This document shows, piece after piece, positions 4,344 through 20,474 of a stretch of DNA of 21,134 bases (position 1 is its first letter; every line of letters starts with the position of its first letter). The DNA is from a virus, in the IMG/VR virus record IMGVR_UViG_3300027971_002207, positions 1 through 21,134 of that record. One strand, given 5' to 3'. Position numbers and translations under genes: made by a program. Below the pieces are notes generated by a model. It made no database searches. It saw only the letters and a list, made by a program, of their open reading frames with translations, and was not told where the DNA came from.

Positions 4344-5549
4344 TTATAGTTCGAAGAAGTTATTCATAACCTCTTTGTGCTGGCTAGCAATCCACTGGCC
4401 ACCGTAATTGATATAGATATTTCTATATTTTTCATAGATATGCATTGGATCATCTGACTCAAACATTTCATGAATGGATTGAAGTATTGAATATAAATCT
4501 TTAGGAATAACTTCTCCTAATAATTCAATATCCTTAGTACAGAAACTACTAATATCTAATAATCCTTTGTTAAATACTAACAGATTTTGTAATGTACCTC
4601 TATCATAATATTCCTGCTTGTAATCATTAATAATCTTCATATTCCAATTCTTTGTTATAGGAGTATGAAATAAAGTAGGCATTAAATCTTCTTCTCTATA
4701 CTTAATATCTCTTGATACATGTATTTGATCCCATTTCTGAGCTGAGAAGTTAGGTCCTATAATCAAATCGCCAAACACCGGAAATTGTCCTGGTGAAGAG
4801 CTATCCGTCATTAATTGGATTCTACCGCCATAATGCTTATTTAAAAGAGCTTGATAAGTTCCTAGGATAAAGAAGTCTGATACCTTAGAAATACCCAACA
4901 TATGAATAAATTCTACATTAGCTTTTTCAAACTCTCTATTTTTTAAGAATAATGCTATAGTATACATAAAATCGACTAATCTTCTGCTACCTCCAACACA
5001 CCAACCATTAAAATCAAAGTCCTTTACGGTATCATACCATAAATTAAATTGACTTGGATTATTTCCTTGAAGAACATTTAAGAATCTTGTTTTACCGCTT
5101 TGTTTCTGAGCAAAGTATTTAAAATTATCATAACTGAAATCTAATGATTCTTGAAACTTACCTTCATAGCTCATACGAGGAGGTATATCTAAGTTAGCTG
5201 CTACATCTGAATTAGCTTCTAAGAATTGTAATATTTGATCACGAATATTAACGTCCCATTTAATAGCGCCTGATGCTATCTGGAATCCTCCCGAATCACC
5301 AAAGGTAAATGTTTCTTCTAATCCAAATCTTTGTCTAGCATCCATCTTTTTATAAAAATGACCTGCAGTTATTAAGAAGTAAGGATGTCTAAATTCTTCT
5401 GGGAAATCTTTCGAATAGAATCTAGATGTTAGTCCAGGTTCAATATCTCTATTTTTCTGAAGCGACGATGCCGTACCTCCTGCTGATAGCGAAGGAATAA
5501 ATAGCGGCTTTCGATTTGGGTTGGGTGCAACCAAGTGTGATAAATCCAT
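4344..5549 (-). CDS. dpdA: DpdA-like 7-deazaguanine DNA transglycosylase (TGT superfamily)
   Basis: A 401-aa member of the tRNA-guanine transglycosylase superfamily, most like the DpdA enzymes that exchange guanine in DNA for a 7-deazaguanine. It shows the TIM-barrel landmarks FGDSGGFQ (Asp85, the base-binding/general-acid Asp), LDIPPR at 120-125, NVLQG at 158-162 and the glycine-rich WCVGG at 183-187. Asp249 in LMTDSSS is my candidate for the nucleophile. The zinc-binding CxCxxC cluster of bacterial tRNA-directed TGT is absent, which favours the DNA enzyme. The same window encodes FolE, QueD and QueE, which would make its substrate, and this context is the strongest functional support. The gene follows a terminator and a candidate promoter shared with queD and is followed by the clamp gene, so modification may be timed with replication. 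Confidence 0.85.
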   Translation of the reverse strand: MDLSHLVAPNPNRKPLFIPSLSAGGTASSLQKNRDIEPGLTSRFYSKDFPEEFRHPYFLITAGHFYKKMDARQRFGLEETFTFGDSGGFQIASGAIKWDVNIRDQILQFLEANSDVAANLDIPPRMSYEGKFQESLDFSYDNFKYFAQKQSGKTRFLNVLQGNNPSQFNLWYDTVKDFDFNGWCVGGSRRLVDFMYTIALFLKNREFEKANVEFIHMLGISKVSDFFILGTYQALLNKHYGGRIQLMTDSSSPGQFPVFGDLIIGPNFSAQKWDQIHVSRDIKYREEDLMPTLFHTPITKNWNMKIINDYKQEYYDRGTLQNLLVFNKGLLDISSFCTKDIELLGEVIPKDLYSILQSIHEMFESDDPMHIYEKYRNIYINYGGQWIASQHKEVMNNFFEL

Positions 5550-5634: not shown

Positions 5635-5808
5635 TCATTTCTTTAATCCATTATCTATCAAATAGAAAAAACTAGACTTAGTTTCATTATTTTTTATCTC
5701 TGGATATTGTTGGGAAAGTATATCATATATCTTAAATGCCAAATTTGGCTCGATACTAAAGGAATCCATTTCCTCTTTGATTAATTTTATTAGTTCTGTC
5801 TTTTTCAT
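5635..5808 (-). CDS. Small 57-aa protein with a shortened shared leader
   Basis: A short frame translating to 57 aa and filling the gap between the 436-aa gene and the terminator. It starts MKKTELIKLIKEEMDSFSIE, so its first 13 residues carry the leader seen on its three upstream neighbours (MKKSELNQLIKEE in the next gene), after which the sequence diverges (PNLAFKIYDILSQQYPEI). The full KKVLKE end of the leader is missing. The start lies 6 bases after the stop of the 436-aa gene and the stop 3 bases before the terminator hairpin, placing it as the last gene of the unit. It may be a very small tagged protein or a decayed copy of a leader gene. No function can be assigned. Confidence 0.7.
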   Translation of the reverse strand: MKKTELIKLIKEEMDSFSIEPNLAFKIYDILSQQYPEIKNNETKSSFFYLIDNGLKK

Positions 5809-5814
5809 ATTATC

Positions 5815-7125
5815 TTACCATTTAAAATCACTTAATCCATTAACTCTTGTAGCATGTCCAGCACCCCAAGAACTAATTTTTAATTGTTTGCCACCATCAA
5901 TAAAATCTATATCTAATGGTCTATTTGCGCCACTATCTACTTCGGGTGATGAAATAACTACAGTAAGTCTACCGCCAAAAGCTTCAGATGGGTCAGCATT
6001 TTTATAATTAGGCTGCCAATTCCAATATTTAACGGAATATTTAGATATTATATATCTTTTACCGTCAGCAAGCACTTTATATACAGCTGATGAATATGTG
6101 TTATCATTATCTGGTAATTGATATCCTATATATATGCTACTTGCCCAAGGATCATCTCCCGACTGCGCCCATATCATAACTTGTTGATTATCAGTTCTGC
6201 ATTTATCTGTAAATTTCCAATACCCAACCCAAGGTGCATCATTCCTAGCTACTGCTGAATCAGCTAATTGCATTTTAACATTAGGTTTAAGAACCATTTG
6301 TTTGTATTGTGTCGTGTCGCTTTTTGAAGTTTTGGGTTTAGGTGTATATTTACCTAATCCTGCTAATACACTATTTACAGTAACTGTTTTACCAGATGTA
6401 TTTAAAAAGTCTACAGGGGCAACGTTTTCTTCTTCTCCTGATGGCATTTCTGTTTGAGCATTGTTAGGTCTAATATCTGAATTATCTGGCTTTGTGCAAG
6501 AAACTAATCCAGATGCTAATACTAAGCAAGTCGCTGCAATGACTAATTTATCTTTTATGCCTTCATCCATAGTTACTTTTCCGTCAGGATTAACTGTTAC
6601 AATTTTAGTTTTACCTGTTGGTCCTTTTAATTCAACATTCATATCATCAGTTACTTCAATACCAGCCTTTTTTAATGCTTTCATTAATGTATTTTCTGGT
6701 ATAGAAGTTTCTTTTAAAGAAGATTGTTTATTTGATTTAGTATTAGTAAATACTTCTGGAGAATTTACATTATGATCTGTAACTATTAATAAATCTATAT
6801 CATTACTGCTAGCTTCCATTTTTGTAATTTTCGTAGCCTTTTGCATAAAGTATGCTTGGATATTTAAAATTATTGAATCATCTACTAGCCCTTTTAATTT
6901 ACTTAATTCTCGTAAATTAATAACGTCTGATGGTTTTAGATCTGATCGACCTCCGCTATTATAGCAAACAATTGCATATTTTTTACCAGCAACATTTCCA
7001 ATAAATCCATATCCATTTGTAAATTTATCATTATTGACTCTTTGTATTTTATCATAGATCGTAGATTCCTTTAATACTTTCTTGATCTCTTCTTTGATCA
7101 ATTGATTAAGTTCTGATTTTTTCAT
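5815..7125 (-). CDS. Leader-tagged protein with an internal lipoprotein-type signal, 436 aa
   Basis: A 436-aa protein of unknown function with an odd layout. Residues 1-20 are the shared leader (MKKSELNQLIKEEIKKVLKE), followed by Ser, as expected for a prohead-protease site. Residues 22-130 form a soluble mixed domain. A second L-K-E site lies at 137-139, before a linker. Residues 194-210 are a hydrophobic run ending LVSC with Cys210, a good lipobox, and then a polar TKPDNSD stretch like a mature lipoprotein start. The C-terminal part (about 300-436) is aromatic-rich and beta-like (WVGYWKF, YWNWQPNY). An in-frame ATG at 6570 (Met186) could start a separate lipoprotein, though its n-region DEGIKDK is not basic. 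So this may be a fusion or two overlapping products. It lies between two other leader genes. Confidence 0.75.
   Translation of the reverse strand: MKKSELNQLIKEEIKKVLKESTIYDKIQRVNNDKFTNGYGFIGNVAGKKYAIVCYNSGGRSDLKPSDVINLRELSKLKGLVDDSIILNIQAYFMQKATKITKMEASSNDIDLLIVTDHNVNSPEVFTNTKSNKQSSLKETSIPENTLMKALKKAGIEVTDDMNVELKGPTGKTKIVTVNPDGKVTMDEGIKDKLVIAATCLVLASGLVSCTKPDNSDIRPNNAQTEMPSGEEENVAPVDFLNTSGKTVTVNSVLAGLGKYTPKPKTSKSDTTQYKQMVLKPNVKMQLADSAVARNDAPWVGYWKFTDKCRTDNQQVMIWAQSGDDPWASSIYIGYQLPDNDNTYSSAVYKVLADGKRYIISKYSVKYWNWQPNYKNADPSEAFGGRLTVVISSPEVDSGANRPLDIDFIDGGKQLKISSWGAGHATRVNGLSDFKW
7070..7102 (-). repeat. 33-bp leader repeat, copy A
   Basis: A 33-base stretch encoding the core LIKEEIKKVLK of the leader of the 436-aa protein. 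It is identical at base level to 7465-7497 and 7867-7899, including synonymous positions, so the copies spread recently or are kept uniform by recombination. Confidence 0.95.
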
Positions 7126-7166
7126 AGTTAAATGTTTATTTTTGTTTTTATTTACATATCCAACAA

Positions 7167-7553
7167 TTAATCAAGCAATTGATCAACGGTAAACCCTAAT
7201 TTTTTAGCACACTTTTTTAGGGTAATTTGGATTTCTGCGGAATCTTCAGGACCGGCATACTCGGAGTCGTACGTATTTTGACTAGCAAAGAGGTCTAACA
7301 TGTCAAAGTAGTTTTTGCCTTTTAATTTGATAACCTCTGCTTTTATTTTTTTCTTATCGTTTTCAGCTTTTTCTACTACTCCGTCACCATAACCTTGGTC
7401 CGCAGTGTAATCAGCAGTTATATAATCTTGAAGCATTGATAGTAAATCCTCATTACTAACTTCTTTTAATACTTTCTTGATCTCTTCTTTGATCAATATT
7501 CCTGCAAGTTTTTGCATTCTGTAGAATTCTTCGTTTAAGATTTGTTTTGACAT
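7167..7553 (-). CDS. Leader-tagged hypothetical protein with a double N-terminal tag, 128 aa
   Basis: A 128-aa acidic, mostly helical protein with no recognised domain. Its N-terminus appears to carry two tags in tandem: residues 1-20 read MSKQILNEEFYRMQKLAGIL, a sequence type (NEEF-x-RMQKLAGI) that I recall on many proteins of marine and Bacteroidetes phages, and residues 21-31 are the shared IKEEIKKVLKE core, followed by Val. The remainder (SNEDLLSMLQDY... to KKCAKKLGFTVDQLLD) is acidic in the middle and ends in a possible helix-turn-helix-sized segment. It lies 6 bases after another leader gene and 41 bases before the next. I infer a small protein packaged in or attached to the virion; the activity is unknown. 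Confidence 0.75.
   Translation of the reverse strand: MSKQILNEEFYRMQKLAGILIKEEIKKVLKEVSNEDLLSMLQDYITADYTADQGYGDGVVEKAENDKKKIKAEVIKLKGKNYFDMLDLFASQNTYDSEYAGPEDSAEIQITLKKCAKKLGFTVDQLLD
7465..7497 (-). repeat. 33-bp leader repeat, copy B
   Basis: Encodes residues of the second tag of the 128-aa protein. It is base-identical to copies A and C, and the match to copy C continues a few bases further (into the AAAGAA coding for K-E). It sits inside the reading frame and not at the start codon, unlike the other two copies. Confidence 0.95.
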
Positions 7554-7559
7554 TTTATA

Positions 7560-7922
7560 TTATTTTATAGTTATCATAGCTAAGTTTCCGTGATGAAAAA
7601 AATCATATTTTTTGCCAACTCCATTTTTATTTAAAAAATTAACAAAGTCTTCAGCGGCGATGTTAGAATTAGGCGTTGATCTAAACACAAGATATTCTTT
7701 ATTACTAATACCAAATTCAGCTTCATATCCACGACCGGCTTTTATTTCAACCTCACCATTAGTACCTTTTTTATTTGTAAAATCATATGTTCCTTCAATG
7801 TTTAAAGTGTTTAAAAATTTAAAGAAATCTTCAATTGTTTTACTGTCCCAAAATTTAGGTGATTCTTTTAATACTTTCTTGATCTCTTCTTTGATCAATA
7901 GTTTTAGTTCTGTGTATTTCAT
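7560..7922 (-). CDS. Leader-tagged hypothetical protein, 120 aa
   Basis: A 120-aa protein beginning MKYTELKLLIKEEIKKVLKE and then Ser, the shared leader with a candidate protease site. The remaining hundred residues form a small alpha/beta domain I do not recognise: a helix (TIEDFFKFLNTLN), beta strands (GTYDFTNKK, EVEIKAGRGYEAEFGI, EYLVFRST), a helix (AAEDFVNFLNKNG) and a final strand (NLAMITIK). It lies 19 bases after the glycosyltransferase-like gene and 6 bases before the next leader gene. Nothing in it suggests an enzyme. If the leader is a packaging tag, the mature product would be about 100 residues and could act early in infection, but that is inference. Confidence 0.75.
   Translation of the reverse strand: MKYTELKLLIKEEIKKVLKESPKFWDSKTIEDFFKFLNTLNIEGTYDFTNKKGTNGEVEIKAGRGYEAEFGISNKEYLVFRSTPNSNIAAEDFVNFLNKNGVGKKYDFFHHGNLAMITIK
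7867..7899 (-). repeat. 33-bp leader repeat, copy C
   Basis: Third base-identical copy, coding the leader core of the 120-aa protein. Codons on the N-terminal side of the repeat differ from those of copy A (MKYTELKL against MKKSELNQ) although the protein pattern is kept, so the block of strict identity is bounded to the leader core. Confidence 0.95.
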
Positions 7923-7941: not shown

Positions 7942-9054
7942 TTATACGATAGCCAGCTTTTTCAGGTATTTAAATATCATATCCTTAAATGCTGAAATAT
8001 TATAATACTTATTAGTTAATTCTTTCCCTATACCTTCAATACCTTCTGAATACTTATCATAATTCTCCATTCTATCTTTTATATATTCTATTAAATCATT
8101 ATAATGTAGAGTGTATGTCGAATAATCTTTAGTCCATTCACTTGGATATCTCCATTTATCAGGTACTATATGAGTAAAATTTAATCTATCAGGTACTATT
8201 GGTATACATTTATTTATTATTGCTTCATAGGCCGAAGTTGTTGATGAATCTATTTGATCTGCCGAAAATATATATTTTGCAGCAGCCAAGGTTCCGTAAT
8301 ATTGTTCTTCATTTAAAGCTCGTTCATGAACTACAACCCATTCATATTGGGGCAATGCTCTTTGAAGTTCTTTAAATATAATAAGTTGGTTTGACTCCTT
8401 TGCTCTATCCGGAAATACAATCATATTTCTTTTAGGGACATCCTTAAATTCATTAGCATATTCTACAGCTCGCTCCATAGGAGGGCCTGCAAAAGAAATT
8501 TTATCTTGGGCATTAATCATATTCTTCATTCCAAGTGTTTTGAAATGACTTGATTTTATCATATTAAAATGATATTCATTATCAAAATAATTGTTATCGA
8601 TTGCAGATACTAATGCTCGCTCAATATTCTTTAACCATGTACGTTTTTGAGACCAATAAAGATAATGAGTTTTATTAAAACTACCATTTTGCCAAAATCC
8701 ATGAATATATATTTGCTTTTGATATGCGACAGATAAATATTTAAGTTGAAATATAGCAGGATTCCAAGCATCCATAAATACAAAGATATCATTATCTCGG
8801 ACTTTACCAGTACTAAATAACTCAGTAAATTGATTAGTACAGAATGCTTGATGATCTATAATCGATTTAAACGTTAAAGGGCTATCATCAATAAGAGATA
8901 GCCCATTTAATTCTATTCCGTATATAGTAGATACTTTACAATTTAATCCATTCTGAAGTATATAATCTGATATAGCATCTTCTAATTCGCGTTGCCAAAT
9001 TTTTAGATATTTAAAGTCGATTGTATTAGAGTCGATGATAAAAATCGTTTTCAT
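7942..9054 (-). CDS. Glycosyltransferase-like protein (GT-B type), 370 aa
   Basis: A 370-aa protein that I place in the GT-B glycosyltransferase group. The C-terminal half has the typical Rossmann pattern: NMIVFPDRAKESNQLIIFKEL, then YEWVVVHERALNEEQYYGTLAAAKYIFSAD-like text, then SSTTSAYEAIINKCIPIVPD, which corresponds to the donor-binding E-x7-E region. The N-terminal half has D-x-W-x-P-x-I and a W-rich stretch that line up with the 409-aa glycosyltransferase at 13074-14303 (D-x-W-x-P-x-I-x-x-L), suggesting distant paralogues. Its start overlaps the stop of the T-fold gene by one base, so the two are coupled. The acceptor is unknown: modified DNA bases or cell-surface glycan are both possible. 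Confidence 0.65.
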   Translation of the reverse strand: MKTIFIIDSNTIDFKYLKIWQRELEDAISDYILQNGLNCKVSTIYGIELNGLSLIDDSPLTFKSIIDHQAFCTNQFTELFSTGKVRDNDIFVFMDAWNPAIFQLKYLSVAYQKQIYIHGFWQNGSFNKTHYLYWSQKRTWLKNIERALVSAIDNNYFDNEYHFNMIKSSHFKTLGMKNMINAQDKISFAGPPMERAVEYANEFKDVPKRNMIVFPDRAKESNQLIIFKELQRALPQYEWVVVHERALNEEQYYGTLAAAKYIFSADQIDSSTTSAYEAIINKCIPIVPDRLNFTHIVPDKWRYPSEWTKDYSTYTLHYNDLIEYIKDRMENYDKYSEGIEGIGKELTNKYYNISAFKDMIFKYLKKLAIV

Positions 9055-11982: not shown

Positions 11983-12594
11983 TTATTTTAGATTCTTAAC
12001 AAAGTTATAAAATTCATCTCTTACTGCAGGTTCTTCTTTAAATGCTCCTGTTAGTTTTGATGTTATCATTGTCGAATCATGCTGTATACCTCTTAAACAA
12101 GCACATTGATGATTTGCTTGAATCATAACTGCAACACCTAAATTACCTTCGCAAGTTTTATCCAAATAATCAACTATTTGCATATTTAAATTTTCTTGGA
12201 CTTGAGGCATTCTGCAAAAATAATCAACTACTCTATTTAATTTACTTAATCCAATTACTTTACCATCTGGCGCAGGTAAATAAGCAACAAATGCTTTACC
12301 TGTAAAAGGAAGATGATGATGACTGCAAATTGATTTTACATCTATATTGCCTTGAAACACCATTCCATCATACTTATCTGTATTTGAAAATGCTGTAATA
12401 GAAGGGGGAGTATTGAATCTAGATTTAATTAAATCATTAACAAAGCTCTTAGATACCCTTCTAGGAGTATCCATTTCATGTGGGTTATTATCAGGATCTA
12501 GTCCTAATGTCTTCATAAAATTATAGTAATGCTTACTAGCCTCATCTATAATTACTTCTTTTTCTTCTGTTGTATATTGTTTGAAATCTTTCAT
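11983..12594 (-). CDS. folE: GTP cyclohydrolase I
   Basis: FolE converts GTP to 7,8-dihydroneopterin triphosphate, the first step towards 7-deazaguanines (and folate). I start it at the ATG at 12594, giving 203 aa (MKDFKQYTTEEKEV). The longer frame from 12714 would run over the SSB-like gene for 40 codons without any family similarity. In 203-aa numbering the zinc ligands are Cys90 and His93 (SICSHHHLPFTG) and Cys164 (NHQCACLRG). Other family blocks are TPRRV at 43-47, VIGLSKLNRVVDYF and RMPQVQENL. E. coli FolE has 222 aa. It lies 13 bases after the SSB-like gene and directly precedes polymerase. In this phage it most likely feeds QueD, QueE and DpdA. Confidence 0.95.
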   Translation of the reverse strand: MKDFKQYTTEEKEVIIDEASKHYYNFMKTLGLDPDNNPHEMDTPRRVSKSFVNDLIKSRFNTPPSITAFSNTDKYDGMVFQGNIDVKSICSHHHLPFTGKAFVAYLPAPDGKVIGLSKLNRVVDYFCRMPQVQENLNMQIVDYLDKTCEGNLGVAVMIQANHQCACLRGIQHDSTMITSKLTGAFKEEPAVRDEFYNFVKNLK

Positions 12595-12607
12595 GTTATT
12601 TAATTGT

Positions 12608-13072
12608 TTAAAATGGTAAATCATCGTCATCATATTTAGATGTAGTATATGAAGGTTCTTCTTCGATTTTGACATCTGCTGTTTCTTGCCAATTAGTTTC
12701 AATATGTATTGCATCTAAATCTAACGGTCTTCCTGAATCAATTGAAAGAAAATTAAGATATGCTGTAGTATATATTCCAGATACCTTTGAATATTCTTTA
12801 AGCTGAGAATTATATTTTATATAATATCCGGGAGTAATTACTGCATTGAACTTAAGATTTAAAATATCGTTTCTATTAAAATCTTTCGTCAATAAATACT
12901 TTTCTATAGTGCTTTCAAATACACTTGCCGGAAGATAAAACGTTTGAGCAAGATCTTCAAACTTAATCATATATGATATATCTAAATTAGCATAAGTATT
13001 ATTAGCTTTTGTTATCTTTCTAATATCTGAAATAACAAGATTCTTATGTGTGAATGGTATTTTAGTTTTCAT
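12608..13072 (-). CDS. Probable single-stranded DNA-binding protein with SSB-type acidic tail
   Basis: A 154-aa protein with no obvious strong family match, but its last nine residues, KYDDDDLPF, copy the acidic tip (D-D-D-I/L-P-F) with which bacterial SSBs recruit partner proteins. The tail is preceded by a low-complexity acidic linker (TADVKIEEEPSYTTS). The first 110 residues are beta-rich with alternating hydrophobic positions (LDISYMIKF, AQTFYLPASVF, LNLKFNAVITPGYYIKY), compatible with an OB fold. The length is near that of bacterial SSB (about 150-180 aa). It lies between the 409-aa glycosyltransferase (1-base gap) and folE-polymerase. A T4 gp32-type protein with its CCHC zinc motif is not seen in this window, so this may be the replicative SSB. 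The tail is what I see; the fold is inferred. Confidence 0.6.
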   Translation of the reverse strand: MKTKIPFTHKNLVISDIRKITKANNTYANLDISYMIKFEDLAQTFYLPASVFESTIEKYLLTKDFNRNDILNLKFNAVITPGYYIKYNSQLKEYSKVSGIYTTAYLNFLSIDSGRPLDLDAIHIETNWQETADVKIEEEPSYTTSKYDDDDLPF

Positions 13073-13073
13073 A

Positions 13074-14303
13074 TTATTTAGATGTCGTTAATAAGTGTTT
13101 ACATAATTCGGACTCGTGCCAAATATTTAATTCAAATTCAGGATTATTAGCTACTATCCAAGCTTCTGTTCTTCTTCCTAAATCACTCTTCTCAACAATA
13201 CCATAATTAGTGCTACCACTATAATACATATCTTTAATTGTATTATCTAATACTTCAACTGCTGAATCTACATCAAAAGGAACATACATTCTATTTGCTG
13301 GGACTTGTTCTGGAAATCCTCTAAAATTAGGATATACTACATCAATACCAAATGCTGTACCTTCTACTATTGTAAATGATACCCAATCTTGTAAAGATGA
13401 ATTAAATAAAATCATATTAGATGCCAATTCTTCATAATACTCTTCTTTAGAAAGACCTTCCATTAATTTAAATCTAGGTTCTTCTGCAGCATATAATCTA
13501 AAAGCATCCATTACTCCAGGAAGTGAACTTCTTAATACTTTTCCTGATGTAGTTATGTGCCATTCAAAATCCGGATTATTTTTTAAGAATACCTTTGCTA
13601 CCTCAAGCATAAAGAATGGATTTTTTTCTTTATCCAATCTAGATGAAAACATAACCACGTTCTTTTTAGATTCGCTTGCTTTTTCTTTCCAATTAGGAAC
13701 TTTGCTTCTTATTTCTTCTTCCGAAACAGGCATTGATACAACATGTATTGGACAAGTATAACCATCTTGACGCAAAAGATCTCTATGTAAAGTACTTCCT
13801 ACAAACATACCACTTAAACGTGCATCTAGCCCCAATTCGTAATGTCTCATCCACTTTCTCATATCAAAGGTAAAATCATATTCATCAGAAGATTGAGCCC
13901 AATTACGAGCATAAAACTTAATATTTTTATAACCGTATAAATCTAAGGCGTAAAATAAGCTTTCAATACCAGGAGTCCAAAAGTCTTGCAAAAATACAAT
14001 ATCACCATCTTTTACGATATCTTTATTAAGCATATCTAAAAAGTTAGCACATTGACTCATTGCATACTTACCTCTACCTACAGCATCTAATACTGCTCCA
14101 ACTTTAATTTCCTGATCTTCATTAAATTCGCCAGGAACATCGATAAAATTAATTTTATCACTTTGTAATGCGAATGCATCTGGCATCCATTTTGTTGACA
14201 ACTGATATGTATATCTAGCTTTGTATGGCTCTAAGCCAAAGTAGAATACGTTGCATTTTTCATTCATTTCTTTCATAACATTAATATAAGTATTAATTTT
14301 CAA
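13074..14303 (-). CDS. GT-B glycosyltransferase, 409 aa
   Basis: A 409-aa protein with GT-B architecture. The N-terminal half includes DIVFLQDFWTPGIESLFYAL and a KFYARNWAQSSDEYDF stretch. The C-terminal half starts near residue 215 with KKNVVMFSSRLDKEKNPFFM, the classic first strand and phosphate-binding loop of GT4-like enzymes. It continues with FEWHITTSGK, the EEYYEELASNMILFNSSLQDW segment and TIVEGTAFGIDVVYPN, the donor-sugar E-x7-E-like region. It likely transfers a sugar from a nucleotide sugar; the acceptor is unknown. The neighbours are GroES (10-base gap) and the SSB-like gene. In T4, glucosyltransferases modify hydroxymethyl-cytosine in DNA, so a role in hypermodifying DNA is possible, but surface glycan or protein targets are equally open. 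A related gene lies at 7942-9054. Confidence 0.8.
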   Translation of the reverse strand: MKINTYINVMKEMNEKCNVFYFGLEPYKARYTYQLSTKWMPDAFALQSDKINFIDVPGEFNEDQEIKVGAVLDAVGRGKYAMSQCANFLDMLNKDIVKDGDIVFLQDFWTPGIESLFYALDLYGYKNIKFYARNWAQSSDEYDFTFDMRKWMRHYELGLDARLSGMFVGSTLHRDLLRQDGYTCPIHVVSMPVSEEEIRSKVPNWKEKASESKKNVVMFSSRLDKEKNPFFMLEVAKVFLKNNPDFEWHITTSGKVLRSSLPGVMDAFRLYAAEEPRFKLMEGLSKEEYYEELASNMILFNSSLQDWVSFTIVEGTAFGIDVVYPNFRGFPEQVPANRMYVPFDVDSAVEVLDNTIKDMYYSGSTNYGIVEKSDLGRRTEAWIVANNPEFELNIWHESELCKHLLTTSK

Positions 14304-14313
14304 ATTACCAAAT

Positions 14314-14637
14314 TTATCTTATCACCATTAATAATTCTGACTCTCTTAATATAAGATAAGATTTGCCATTCATTTTAATATCTTGTCCTTGATGATAAGG
14401 AGGGACTACTACTTTATCTCCTACTTTTACTGTCATAGGAATTGCTATACCACTTTGGGTATAAAGACCATCTCCTACTGCAACTACGGTAGTGTATTTA
14501 ACATCTTCTGTTGCGGCTGTTTCTGGAATAAAGATTCCTGATTCCGTTTTCTTTTCTTCATGTTTCGGTGCAGCTTCTACTAACACTCTGTCGCCTAACG
14601 GCTTCGCTAATTGCGCATTTTCTTCGTTGTTTGTCAT
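14314..14637 (-). CDS. groES: GroES-like co-chaperonin
   Basis: A 107-aa co-chaperonin of the GroES/Cpn10 family. The start of the domain reads KPLGDRVLVE (12-21), followed by the mobile-loop region EEKKTESGIFIPETA (about 27-41), with the SGIFI stretch in the position of the GroEL-contacting G-G-I-x-L. It ends with VVVPPYHQGQDIKMNGKSYLILRESELLMVI. It has an extra polar ten-residue N-terminus. It resembles bacterial GroES more than T4 gp31, which shares only the fold. Such phage proteins work with host GroEL, in T4 to fold the major capsid protein. The GroEL used here is presumably the host's, as none is in the window. It follows the nucleotidyltransferase gene with a 4-base gap. Confidence 0.95.
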   Translation of the reverse strand: MTNNEENAQLAKPLGDRVLVEAAPKHEEKKTESGIFIPETAATEDVKYTTVVAVGDGLYTQSGIAIPMTVKVGDKVVVPPYHQGQDIKMNGKSYLILRESELLMVIR

Positions 14638-15647: not shown

Positions 15648-16373
15648 TTATTTACTTAAATTTAATTTAGATTGTAACTCGTAAAATTTAGGAGCCGTCT
15701 TTTTTATATTTTTAATCTTACTAAATATATCATTAGGGTTTGCTATGAATATATTACTAGGAGTAAATTTATTATCTACTAATATAAATTCTTCTTCATC
15801 AAATTCAGATACAGCTCTCGTGAATTCGGTATTAAATAATAAGTTTGGATTGATTAAATCTATTTCTGATATAATAGGAAATGTGTTAGTACTAATTAAT
15901 TTATTAATATCTTTAGAATTTACCTTACTAAAAAGTTCAGCTTGTTGATATGAATTACTAAAACTAAGATACCCGGTAGATCCTTTTGATTGTATAGTTA
16001 TGTCTGGTGATTCAATAATATATACATTAAAGTTATAAAATTTAATATCACTTTCAAGTAATATGTCTATATCAATAGTTGTACCTCTATATGCTGACGA
16101 ATATCTAGACATAGTTGGATCTAAAATATTTGGAAATTTTGATTTGAGCTGTAATAGTTTATTTAATACATCAACATCAATAGTCTTTTCAACATTATCT
16201 GAAAAATATTTATTTAATGCTTTTAAAAAAATCTTCTCATCATTTGAATTTGGTTCTTTCTTTGAAATAAGTGATTTGATATGCTGTTTATTAACTATAC
16301 TTTTATCATTAGGATCGCTAAACAAATAAGTACCATACTCAAATTCTTTTAATAAATCAATTAATTTAATCAT
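15648..16373 (-). CDS. Probable mono-ADP-ribosyltransferase (R-S-E type), T4 Alt/Mod-like role
   Basis: A 241-aa protein carrying the three spaced motifs of R-S-E ADP-ribosyltransferases, which move ADP-ribose from NAD to arginine or other residues. They are Arg96 in SAYRGTTI, the Ser-x-Ser element YLSFSNS (Ser137, Ser139) followed by a helix with AELFS, and E193-E-E195-FIL as the ARTT-loop E-x-E with Glu195 as candidate catalytic Glu. The separation (41 and 56 residues) fits the fold. The N-terminus MIKLIDLLKEFEYG is a short amphipathic stretch with L-K-E, reminiscent of both the leader found on other proteins here and the start of T4 Alt, which is packaged and injected. T4 Alt and Mod enzymes modify host RNA polymerase. 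Overall similarity is low and the call rests on motif order. Confidence 0.65.
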   Translation of the reverse strand: MIKLIDLLKEFEYGTYLFSDPNDKSIVNKQHIKSLISKKEPNSNDEKIFLKALNKYFSDNVEKTIDVDVLNKLLQLKSKFPNILDPTMSRYSSAYRGTTIDIDILLESDIKFYNFNVYIIESPDITIQSKGSTGYLSFSNSYQQAELFSKVNSKDINKLISTNTFPIISEIDLINPNLLFNTEFTRAVSEFDEEEFILVDNKFTPSNIFIANPNDIFSKIKNIKKTAPKFYELQSKLNLSK

Positions 16374-16649: not shown

Positions 16650-16665
16650 AACTTATACATTTAAT
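16643..16665 (-). repeat. 23-bp direct repeat, proximal copy
   Basis: Spans the final codons of queE, its stop, the ATAAGTT initiation region and the first codons of the 78-aa gene. It is identical to 16403-16425. Recombination between the copies would delete the 78-aa gene exactly, leaving queE intact with the same final L-N-V and stop. Confidence 0.95.
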
Positions 16666-17483
16666 GTTTTGTCCCATGCCGAAATGTGCATTCTAGATAA
16701 TCCTCTTACTTTATATTTCTTGGCCATTTCCATAATGAAATTGGTTCTTTCATGAAACTGAGTTTGTGAATCCATTCCTGGCATTACAACTACATTCTTA
16801 AGAGGTATGCTAAATGGTATGATAAAATCACTGAATATTTCTTGGATATCTTCTTCATTACTTATTACAAATTTAAATTGATAATTATTATGTGACATTA
16901 TTCGTTTAATTGCTTCTGGATTAATACGTTGTTTCTCAGTCATACCTGAGTTAGATAGCTTTGGTGAGCAATTGATTTGATCTAGTATTTTAAACAAATC
17001 ATCTTCAATTACTATTGTACCATTAGTTTCTATTTCATAATAAGGAGATCTAAGATCATCTATATGTTTTGATAACCAAGCATTAGTAAAAGTAACAATA
17101 GCTTCTTGATGTGATTTAATTGTAGGTTCACCACCTGTCCAAATAACATGAATAGTACCACTTAAAATATCATCATATATTTCTTGTTCTTTCCATTGAT
17201 TGATTAGATATTGAAAGTCTTGCTCAACACCTCTCCATAACCATTGTGAAGTAGAATCACAGGTCCAAGTAGCTTTACCTTCTAATTCTAAATCACCTTT
17301 AAAGATCTCTCCATCATCTAGTAATTTTTCTTTTAGGATTTTATTTGCAAATGCCCTCGACATTCCGCAGGTTAAATTGCAATTTGCTAATCTTACAAAG
17401 TATGATGGAATACCAGTTGATATTCCTTCTCCTTGTACGCTCATAAAGTCTGATGAAATTAGCAGCTTATTTATTTTATTCAT
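16653..17483 (-). CDS. queE: 7-carboxy-7-deazaguanine synthase (radical SAM QueE) with cluster-loop insertion
   Basis: QueE turns 6-carboxy-tetrahydropterin into 7-carboxy-7-deazaguanine using S-adenosylmethionine and a 4Fe-4S cluster. The 276-aa protein shows SVQGEGISTGIPSYFVRL at the start, the GGEP SAM-binding motif at 117-120, IETNGT at 151-156 and SPKLS at 173-177. The cluster motif is unusual: Cys35-x3-Cys39 is followed by 35 inserted residues before Cys75, in the CDSTSQW context that normally follows two residues after the second Cys. All three ligands are therefore kept, with a long loop between the second and third. I recall a similar insertion in QueE of marine T4-like phages. It lies 5 bases after the 119-aa gene and precedes the 78-aa gene. 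Confidence 0.92.
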   Translation of the reverse strand: MNKINKLLISSDFMSVQGEGISTGIPSYFVRLANCNLTCGMSRAFANKILKEKLLDDGEIFKGDLELEGKATWTCDSTSQWLWRGVEQDFQYLINQWKEQEIYDDILSGTIHVIWTGGEPTIKSHQEAIVTFTNAWLSKHIDDLRSPYYEIETNGTIVIEDDLFKILDQINCSPKLSNSGMTEKQRINPEAIKRIMSHNNYQFKFVISNEEDIQEIFSDFIIPFSIPLKNVVVMPGMDSQTQFHERTNFIMEMAKKYKVRGLSRMHISAWDKTLNV

Positions 17484-18020: not shown

Positions 18021-18542
18021 TTAACAAGCTTCTTCTCTAATACTATCTATTGCTTTTGATATTGGTGTTAATGTATTATCTTCATAATAGCACGAACTAT
18101 TTTTGTTATTCTCAAAGCATTCTACTTTAACAACTTTAACTCTACCACCTTCGGTTTTTGAAAATGTATCATTAAACTTATCAAATACTAATTTAGCTGA
18201 ACTTTCTGCACCGATTCTATCTAAGAATACAGGCTTTGCTAAACCCATTTGACCCATTTGTTCAAATATATCATAGAACGGATCATCTTTTTCAATTAAC
18301 ATAGTATGATCAAACATATCATTCATCCAATCTTTTAATCCATTACGGCTGAATATGCCATAATCAACTATCCAATTCATTTCATCTAATTGTTCTTCTT
18401 CTACTCCGTCTTTTGATTCAAACCATACCTTAAATTCTAAGGCATAACCATGTAATAATTGACAATGAGAATGTTTAGCTTTCCATTGTCTAATCGCAAC
18501 ACTATAATTGTCAAAGCGCTTTGTTGATTGATATTTTCTCAT
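18021..18542 (-). CDS. queD: QueD/6-pyruvoyl-tetrahydropterin synthase-like enzyme, HGY variant
   Basis: QueD makes 6-carboxy-tetrahydropterin from dihydroneopterin triphosphate, between FolE and QueE in deazaguanine synthesis. The 173-aa protein keeps Cys27-x3-His31-Gly, Asp78-His79 (MFDHT) and Glu141 (VVKVECFENNKNSSCY), the catalytic parts of the fold. It differs from standard enzymes: the HGH zinc motif reads HGY (Tyr33), and the first zinc-ligand region is RQWKAKHSHC, with His24 and His26 near the Cys, instead of F-x-A-x-H. I recall the same R-Q-W-x-A-x-x-x-H-C-x-x-x-HGY form in other T4-like phages, so it is a clade feature, not decay. It is the first gene after the terminator and candidate promoter at 18560-18591. 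Confidence 0.82.
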   Translation of the reverse strand: MRKYQSTKRFDNYSVAIRQWKAKHSHCQLLHGYALEFKVWFESKDGVEEEQLDEMNWIVDYGIFSRNGLKDWMNDMFDHTMLIEKDDPFYDIFEQMGQMGLAKPVFLDRIGAESSAKLVFDKFNDTFSKTEGGRVKVVKVECFENNKNSSCYYEDNTLTPISKAIDSIREEAC

Positions 18543-18669: not shown

Positions 18670-19422
18670 TTAACGTTCCATTTCTCTATTACTACGTGCT
18701 ATATTATCAAGTCTATCTTGTTCTTTATTTGGACGTCTATAAGGCGATACATAATTTGGATGACCCGTGGTATGTTTATCTAATAAACCACCGGTTGAAA
18801 CAAACTCTTCTGCTGGCATAATTTTCCATCCCGAATTTAATGCATGACTTCCGTATTTTGTTCCGCGATTTTTAAATGCCATTTCTGCTTCTTGCTTCGA
18901 AGGATACATACTTATAGCATAATTCTTGTCTTTCATCACCCAATAACCAGCTAATTTAGGGTCTAATGGACCATTTTCTTTTAAAGACATTTTACGTTTT
19001 TCTTGCATAGCTGGTGCATTAAAGTTATTTATGGCAACTGCTAATTTTTTGAATTTTTCACCTATAAGGTTGAAATTCATTTTATATATTATACGAGATA
19101 ATTCTCGTAAAGCAATATCAATGCCTTTCCATTTAGCTTGCTGTTCCGGATTTAAATTTGCAAGACCTGACAACTCATACGTGTCAACTTGTGATTCTTC
19201 CATTGTTTCAAATATAGACTCATCATTAGTTTTTACTGCATTTTCTAATGCTTTTATATCTTCTATTGTTTCATCAACCATATAAGGTTCATATAACTTA
19301 AGTTTACCGGCTAAAGTATATATTGTCTTTAGTTTTTTATAATCGATAGTATTAATTTCATTTTCTTTTAATACTTCTTTGATGCTCTCTTTTATAAGAG
19401 ATTTTAATTGTGATATTTTCAT
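18670..19422 (-). CDS. Leader-tagged hypothetical protein, 250 aa
   Basis: A 250-aa protein beginning MKISQLKSLIKESIKEVLKE and then Asn, the shared leader in a more divergent form (SIKEVLKE against EIKKVLKE), with synonymous and non-synonymous differences at base level from the three identical copies. The middle (about 25-150) is helical. A second L-K-E-N site lies near residue 148 (MSLKENGPLD), before a compact C-terminal segment: LAGYWVMKDKNYAISMYPSKQEAEMAFKNRG. This looks like a small beta-alpha module, followed by a basic tail (RRPNKEQDRLDNIARSNREMER). No enzyme signature was seen. It is the last gene before a strong terminator. I infer a virion-packaged protein that may be cut at one or both L-K-E sites; the activity is unknown. 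Confidence 0.75.
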   Translation of the reverse strand: MKISQLKSLIKESIKEVLKENEINTIDYKKLKTIYTLAGKLKLYEPYMVDETIEDIKALENAVKTNDESIFETMEESQVDTYELSGLANLNPEQQAKWKGIDIALRELSRIIYKMNFNLIGEKFKKLAVAINNFNAPAMQEKRKMSLKENGPLDPKLAGYWVMKDKNYAISMYPSKQEAEMAFKNRGTKYGSHALNSGWKIMPAEEFVSTGGLLDKHTTGHPNYVSPYRRPNKEQDRLDNIARSNREMER

Positions 19423-19451: not shown

Positions 19452-20474
19452 TTATGCTTTATCTTTTCTTCCTGAAACTTTTGATCCTAATTGTGAACCT
19501 GCTACAAACATATGATCTCCTTTAAATGTTGATATTGCATCAGATAATCTGTGGTCTGGAGTACATTTTAAAGAATTATATACAGAACTAGCTTCTTCTA
19601 AATATAGCTTCCTGCTTTTTATTATAATCATACCCCACCATGAAGCGCCTTTAATTTTTGCTTCTAATAATCTGTCAATTTCATTACAAAATTTAACTAC
19701 TAAATTATGTATTGCTTTATCTCCATTAGTAGTATTTAATAAAGATGTTATTTTTGCGCTAAGATTCTTTATAATAGGCATTTTTGAAGTTTTACTTAAC
19801 TCAAGTAAATCTTTTATTTGAGCTTCCATTTCAGGGGTTTCTAACTCATTTAAAATAGCATTTATACTTTCTCTAGTTTTAGATTTGTTTAATTTAGCGG
19901 ATGTAAATAATTGAGCTAAATTTAAAAACGAATTTAAATGTTCTGATGTTAAATCGTCTAAAGTCCCGAAGTCAAATGTTGTTTCTGTATAATCTTTTAA
20001 AGATACTGTTTGAGATCCAACTTCCACATCAGGCGTTAATCCTTTTGCCCCTACTACCAAACCTTTAAATACTATAGCAAACCATAATTCTGTTTCATGC
20101 CCGTTTTTGATTTTAATCGTACGCTTTAAAATATCATATAATTCGCCTTCAATACCTGATATTGAATATTCTCCAGATTTTAAAGGTTTATTGGTTTTAG
20201 AAGTAATTAATCCTTCTAAATCATTTGACATATCACTTAATATAATTTCGTTATATAAAGCATCTAATCCAAATATACTTTGATTTTCTGATAAATATCT
20301 TTGTCTAATATATGCATCAAATGCTTGGGACGAGCTAAATATCTCTTCTGAAATTGTATCTTGAACAGGCTCTTCTGGTTCAGTCACTCTTTCTTTCTTT
20401 GCATCACGAATCATACCAGAAATATCTTCTTTAGTAAGTGTAATGCGGTCTAATATGTTAGTTAATGATTTCAT
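19452..20474 (-). CDS. Hypothetical 340-aa protein with a possible PD-(D/E)XK-like core
   Basis: A 340-aa protein of uncertain role. The stretch E127-x-E-LWFAIVFKGLVVGAKGLTPDVEVGSQTVSLKDY (to about 162) has a Glu-bearing helix, then P148-D149-V-E151 on a strand and S-L-K160 on the next. This is the order of a restriction-endonuclease-like core and resembles phage proteins with G-E-x-L-x-A-x-x-x-x-G-x-x-x-x-G-D-x-x-x-x-G-x-x-x-E-x-K. The usual E-x-K is here S-L-K, so activity is doubtful. The rest is helical (NLAQLFTSAKLNKSKTRESINAIL; WWGMIIIKSRKLYLEE). The N-terminus (MKSLTNILDRITLTKEDISG) is short and amphipathic but not the shared leader. It lies about 30 bases after the dUTPase gene. It could be a nuclease, a scaffold or a virion protein. 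Confidence 0.6.
   Translation of the reverse strand: MKSLTNILDRITLTKEDISGMIRDAKKERVTEPEEPVQDTISEEIFSSSQAFDAYIRQRYLSENQSIFGLDALYNEIILSDMSNDLEGLITSKTNKPLKSGEYSISGIEGELYDILKRTIKIKNGHETELWFAIVFKGLVVGAKGLTPDVEVGSQTVSLKDYTETTFDFGTLDDLTSEHLNSFLNLAQLFTSAKLNKSKTRESINAILNELETPEMEAQIKDLLELSKTSKMPIIKNLSAKITSLLNTTNGDKAIHNLVVKFCNEIDRLLEAKIKGASWWGMIIIKSRKLYLEEASSVYNSLKCTPDHRLSDAISTFKGDHMFVAGSQLGSKVSGRKDKA

Follow-up and report, generated by a model that had tools for sequence, protein, structure and literature searches.

Several mostly unrelated proteins encoded in a 21-kilobase (kb) IMG/VR fragment of a T4-like phage (record IMGVR_UViG_3300027971_002207, whose 21,134 nucleotides (nt) are the window analysed here) begin with the same leader of 20 residues. 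We consider it very probable that this leader is a T4-type prohead- (capsid-) targeting propeptide cut by a gp21-like protease, so that the cargo would be freed in the head and likely leave with the DNA. The same T4-type leader had been proposed in the initial annotation of the window, and it passed our comparative tests, namely the association with the protease, the cleavage site of the major capsid protein (MCP), the phi-x-E motif at residue 20, the swapping of leaders, the position of leader genes next to the protease in several of the genomes and a cargo with an ADP-ribosyltransferase (ART) fold. Packaging and cleavage of the tagged proteins are strong inferences from their sequences, a reasonable step further is ejection of the cargo together with the DNA, and effector roles of the cargo, apart from the ART-like cases, are a guess.

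In T4, gp21 cleaves after L/I-x-E, and the propeptides of the internal proteins, 10-19 residues long, are capsid targeting sequences (CTS) (PMC9026906). The window belongs to a T4-like phage as judged by its T4-type clamp loader (PHROG 225), and its family-B polymerase has its best annotated relative in Microcystis phage Mel-JY01 (41% identity). Its sister phage is G006 (polymerase 81% identical).

The leader family and its predicted cut site

We scanned the 2891 genes of 17 phage sequences with a position-specific scoring matrix of leader positions 2-14 and a threshold of 10 bits. Results showed that 74 N-termini scored above the threshold against 2.3 expected from internal windows (Fisher p 3e-52), and on these counts a chance origin of the repeated leader is excluded. 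The alignment of 124 leader proteins gave the consensus MKxSELxxIIKEEIxxVLxE, followed by no conserved sequence, and 276 leader proteins fell into 173 body clusters, mostly unrelated to one another. A degenerate DNA pattern for the leader was present in at least 120 IMG/VR stretches and, when read backwards, had no matches in IMG/VR; in 257 Gb of prokaryote genomes the leader pattern matched only twice, both times on short contigs. Third codon positions vary at invariant leader residues, I10 using all three Ile codons, and because codons vary where residues stay fixed, selection acts on the leader peptide. A tblastn search with the 21-amino-acid (aa) leader alone gave no matches, the query being too short for this to show absence, and no published description of this leader was found in a literature search whose coverage lacked most subscription journals. 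The call of terminase as a leader protein was false, its N-terminus resembling the leader, and a conserved gene family (MDSNKFFKQLRQIIREEVE..., apparently the same as MKTQGFVKLLRKVIREEV...) also scores as a leader, MKTQGFVKLLRKVIREEV accounting for 6 of the 7 control-contig matches.

As the recruiting pattern had required E20, the end point of the leader was tested on 57 leaders that had played no part in the recruitment of their contigs. In 34 of these 57, [LIV]xE ended exactly at residue 20, compared with 0.8 expected, and in 46 it ended within residues 17-26; moreover, the information content dropped at residue 21, from 2.18 bits to 0.58. The residue that follows the leader, analysed in a larger leader set, was enriched in N, A, E, G and D and depleted in K, L, I and F. 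The I-K-E at positions 10-12 may be a second possible cut site in the long leader.

We also looked for the gp21 family (PF03420, S77) in contigs of at least 28 kb. It was encoded by 19 of 30 leader contigs and by 2 of 24 random contigs, which had been recruited by an unrelated 15-mer (p 5e-5); among contigs of 28-100 kb the counts were 15/25 and 0/19 (p 1.5e-5). The sister phage G006 encodes an S77 protease (E 2e-32). When the MCPs from 15 of these phages were aligned to T4 gp23, all had [IVL]xE at the E65/A66 cut, with A, S, V, N or T as the next residue; the gp21-like protease of these phages may recognise the leader motif as well. Leader genes lie within the head-gene cassette around the protease in four genomes (G013, G024, G022 and G007), and the randomly recruited G065 (186 kb) has a single leader match, two mismatches allowed, in the gene directly downstream of the protease. 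Altogether, 22 of 68 leader genes were within 12 genes of the protease (p 0.001 by gene shuffle). Many others, those of the window among them, lie elsewhere, as the T4 internal-protein genes also lie outside the head operon. Beside the protease of the 293-kb phage G013, we also observed a repeated start MDKKxWxKLL... on different small proteins (genes 421, 422, 432 and 437; 254230-265545).

Homologous bodies were found behind leaders of different kinds, and where the case is clear the two join just after phi-x-E. In L149 and L153, for example, the 20-aa leader precedes the '/GKQ[VI]GTLYHFT' body, which in L144 stands behind MIKLLDILKEITE; '/SRQVGNLYHFT' stands behind the 20-aa leader in L207, and '/RKQLGTVYHFT' behind MIISE in G016. 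The '/R[FY][LV]' body of L127 has the long leader, and its G006 counterpart (48% identity, E 1e-50) has MKLKRLYNELLLE instead; this body is also found behind phi-x-E-ending starts in pT24 and a Schizotequatrovirus phage, while the body of L222, which has the long leader, recurs in L181 behind a scaffold-tail-like leader. A short class of 10 aa, MIKLxxLLxE, was present at 29 of the 2891 N-termini, at none of 10841 internal methionines and in none of 1551 control genes, and 10 of 25 short-leader genes were within 3 genes of a long-leader gene against 2.7 expected (p 0.0004). By their sequences, the putative cargo tags fall into at least three classes (long, short and scaffold-tail-like). The initial annotation had expected the leader to pick out the cargo across a whole genome; it does mark many cargo candidates, but used alone it would miss the cargo of the other classes. 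It had also taken absence of the leader from genomes with the same protease as a refutation, which asks too much, since T4 and Mel-JY01 have leaders of other kinds; Mel-JY01, a complete relative, has the head protease, the scaffold tail and two short leaders, without the long leader.

Searches with Pfam (24736 models) and PHROGs on the 124 leader proteins named almost nothing, and few matches to the cargo families turned up in annotated phages. The leader-tagged YHFT protein L153 was modelled (pLDDT, the predicted local distance difference test score, 74) with a separate leader helix at residues 3-20 and an ART fold from residue ~20; residues ~20-165 resemble DarT (E 4e-4) as well as Tpt1 (Z 8-10), and the Pfam match to Tox-ART-HYD1 (E 6e-4) is under the curated cut-off of that family. 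Its body is predicted to be an ART fold directly behind the leader. In T4, Alt is an ADP-ribosyltransferase packaged in the head (PMC9026906), and Ip1-3, which have only the leader in common, are injected restriction-enzyme inhibitors (PMC12373910).

Two further YHFT ART-like proteins (L262:17236-18234 and L256:2448-3443) carry a C-terminal HExxH metallopeptidase-like domain and a minimal leader, MIISE or MFISE. In the 642-kb uncultured phage L431 (LR756502.1), a relative of the YMFFQNL cargo family stands behind an unrelated N-terminus, MENIKSFDSFNE, and the gene next to it begins MKYLKRFNE, possibly a further leader type in huge phages.

Leader-bearing genes of the window

Nearly all window genes are carried by the minus strand, and those that bear a leader or another tag are the following.

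7560 to 7922, minus strand: leader-bearing 120-aa gene, body without assigned function
7863 to 7922, minus strand: MKYTELKLLIKEEIKKVLKE, the 120-aa gene's long leader, with its cut predicted between E20 and S
7167 to 7553, minus strand: 128-aa gene with two tandem tags
7497 to 7553, minus strand: scaffold-tail-like tag MSKQILNEEFYRMQKLAGI, N-terminal on the 128-aa gene
7461 to 7496, minus strand: LIKEEIKKVLKE, residues 20-31 of the 128-aa gene, in tandem with the preceding scaffold-tail-like tag, its cut predicted before V
5815 to 7125, minus strand: 436-aa putative two-part cargo (parts A and B)
7066 to 7125, minus strand: MKKSELNQLIKEEIKKVLKE, the 436-aa gene's long leader, with its cut predicted before S
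5635 to 5808, minus strand: 57-aa gene
5767 to 5808, minus strand: half leader MKKTELIKLIKEEM of the 57-aa gene
18670 to 19422, minus strand: leader-bearing 250-aa gene, leader kept in G005 and G006 relatives
19363 to 19422, minus strand: long leader MKISQLKSLIKESIKEVLKE of the 250-aa gene, predicted cut before N
15648 to 16373, minus strand: 241-aa gene with short leader
16344 to 16373, minus strand: short 10-aa leader MIKLIDLLKE

The five genes to which the initial annotation had assigned the leader (starts 7922, 7553, 7125, 5808 and 19422) are all present, and members of a 62-nt repeat family lie at their 5' ends. The complete leader of 20 residues is found on three of them (7922, 7125 and 19422); in the gene starting at 7553 it is internal, behind MSKQILNEEFYRMQKLAGI, and the one starting at 5808 has only its first ~14 residues, VLKE being absent. 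The residues given there as following L-K-E were correct (S in 7125 and 7922, V in 7553, N in 19422). The leader copies in 7125, 7922 and 7553 share ~36/37 nt, and therefore were recently duplicated or converted.

The claim that the bodies are unrelated holds for most leader proteins. The exception is the 57-aa gene, whose body is the free-standing counterpart (68% identity) of the domain at the C-terminus of a 259-aa leader protein that the sister phage G006 encodes at this locus. The 436-aa protein, for its part, consists of A and B joined, leader plus A occurring alone in L008 and leader plus B alone in L007, so that cargo turnover in the window goes module by module for these two genes. 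The 436-aa protein also has an internal LKE/TS near residues 137-139. At residues ~185-205 we noticed a hydrophobic stretch, KLVIAATCLVLASGLVSC, that is lipoprotein-signal-like, within a supposed head cargo. The 241-aa gene has a conserved RGT...S[FW]S...E-x-E, no Pfam match and close relatives only, and its structure model was unreliable (pLDDT 36); the motif alone suggests an R-S-E ADP-ribosyltransferase.

Other genes of the window were also recorded. The MKSLTNILDRITLTKEDISGMIR start of the gene at 19452-20474 is common to a 459-aa G005 protein, which has a ~114-residue insert behind it, and to related G006 and G002 proteins, and may be a further leader. Four genes, all on the minus strand (11983-12714, 18021-18542, 16653-17483 and 4344-5549), look like a 7-deazaguanine DNA-modification set, with a GTP cyclohydrolase I (Pfam E 6e-47), a 6-pyruvoyl-tetrahydropterin synthase/QueD-like gene (E 2e-12) and, recognised by eye and without a Pfam match, genes resembling QueE (radical SAM) and Tgt/DpdA (DSGGFQ motif). 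Finally, GroES-like cochaperonin, hotdog thioesterase and glycosyltransferase-like genes are found at 14314-14637, 56-505, 13074-14303 and 7942-9054, the last by eye only.

A second tag resembling the scaffold tail

The tag ahead of the leader in the gene starting at 7553, NEEFxRMQKLAGI, matches the C-terminal tail of the scaffold. We searched 1.34 million residues for the motif phi-x-R-[MW]-[QK]-x-L-A-G (LAG motif) and found 15 copies in the first 30 residues of a protein and 23 in the last 15, with 4 at other positions (p 1e-22). At the C-terminus it belongs mostly to the scaffold protein, encoded between the protease and the MCP, and at the N-terminus mostly to small proteins like the one starting at 7553. 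A candidate protease site lies on the body side of the motif in both settings, as [LIV]xE lies within 9 residues downstream in all 14 distinct N-terminal cases and within 10 residues upstream in 18 of 21 C-terminal cases. From this arrangement we infer that the LAG motif is a docking peptide which scaffold and cargo have in common and which the protease cuts off. The T4 gp22 C-terminus has no clear LAG motif, and the body homology of the 7553 gene to proteins with the scaffold-tail-like tag alone is weak and was not used as support.

These observations can be drawn together as loading by scaffold mimicry, a proposal to which we give an even chance. The scaffold docking peptide (E-x-F-x-R-M-Q-K-L-A-G-I) would be copied onto either end of a cargo, with a prohead-protease site that lets maturation cut the tag off, and bodies moving among at least three removable tags would form a modular packaging system in a large group of uncultured phages.

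Alternative explanations and known systems

Several points weigh against a protease-removed targeting leader. About 40% of the 57 unselected leaders lack [LIV]xE exactly at residue 20. A search for virion proteomics of these leader-bearing phages, and for cultured phages with such data that carry the long leader, found none, and no cut has been observed. The S77 gene is absent from the 21-kb window fragment, its protease being presumed from the sister phage G006. The S77 association is partly phylogenetic, as the leader and the protease are both markers of one broad group of phages. Moreover, the closeness of leader genes to the protease had p 0.057 when genomic clustering was kept; the leader segments that the initial annotation expected near a gp21-like protease are adjacent to it in several genomes, but lie far away in most.

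The leader could instead mark parts of the head's structure or core (gp67/gp68-like assembly proteins), which would be debris or scaffolding once cleaved and not injected cargo. Consistent with this, leader genes stand among portal, protease and scaffold in G024, G013, G022 and G065, and a conserved head gene (TGDVAG family) carries the leader in G024. The variable, accessory and clustered bodies, their turnover at the same locus between sister phages and the ART-fold body argue the other way, and we regard this explanation as unlikely for the leader proteins in general, although the cargo and structural readings may each hold for different genes. A helix for localisation or partner binding unrelated to the head, for instance at a replication compartment or a membrane, would fit the modelling of the leader as a separate helix and the many leader genes near replication genes, as in the window. 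It leaves unexplained the phi-x-E end, the S77 association, the MCP site, the T4-like short-leader swap and the scaffold-tail tag, and is thus quite improbable.

Even less credit is due to a selfish or recombinogenic DNA repeat that copies 5' ends between genes, the peptide having no role. The ~36/37 nt common to three window copies would be expected from such a repeat, but across phages the codons differ and the residues are kept, and unrelated leaders replace each other on one body with phi-x-E retained. Weak Pfam matches to PF25734 (E 0.038 for a window protein, E 0.002 among the 124 leader proteins) point to the N-terminal helix of small antitoxin- or RelB-like DNA-binding proteins. As the match in the window is limited to the leader (residues 4-21), the bodies are mutually unrelated and the 24736 Pfam models name almost nothing on the leader proteins, there is hardly any probability left for this origin.

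Considering the leader as a T4-type targeting propeptide, we propose the following sequence of events. The tagged proteins would be made late in infection, and their N-terminal amphipathic helix would dock them to the core of the assembling prohead. The gp21-like (S77) protease would then cut after [L/I/V]-x-E, mainly at E20 in the long leader and at E10 in the short one, freeing the body inside the head ahead of DNA packaging. The scaffold-tail tag, (N)E-x-F-x-R-M-Q-K-L-A-G-I, probably uses the scaffold's own docking site, with the protease site at its border. The bodies would remain in the head and most likely exit with the DNA at infection, and the cargo would be a fast-changing set, some of it probably enzymatic (ART fold). 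If this is true, the tags reveal from sequence alone which proteins uncultured T4-like phages carry and probably deliver early, as T4 delivers anti-restriction proteins and an RNA-polymerase-modifying enzyme. They would also give a large catalogue of candidate first-strike proteins, nearly all without a known family, and could be used for loading chosen cargo into phage heads.

The closest known system is the T4 CTS of IPI, IPII, IPIII and Alt, which like the leader described here is a short N-terminal propeptide on unrelated bodies, with a phi-x-E end, a gp21-family protease, an ADP-ribosyltransferase among its cargo and internal-protein genes outside the head operon (PMC9026906, PMC12373910). 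The T4 propeptides have 10 aa in IPII and IPIII and 19 in IPI and end in IAE/A or ITE/A, whereas the leader here, MKxSELxxIIKEEIxxVLxE, equals the longest T4 case in length and has two phi-x-E motifs; T4 MKTYQEFIAE and MIKLxxLLxE or MKxSELxxIIKE have only length, start and phi-x-E in common. The candidate cargo set is also far larger and more diverse, in uncultured phages distantly related to T4, and the leader swaps with the 10-aa class and the scaffold-tail-like tag. In phiKZ and SPN3US, a gp21-related protease trims head/ejection proteins after x-x-E, and some of these are ejected (PMC9026906); the phiKZ cleavage motif is S/A-x-E, in contrast to L/I/V-x-E here. What is new here is the second tag that copies the scaffold tail: as in the phages' own scaffold (the gene in gp22 position), it combines phi-x-R-[MW]-[QK]-x-L-A-G with phi-x-E on the body side, but it occurs on other proteins, either at their N-terminus, as in the 14 distinct cases, or at their C-terminus.

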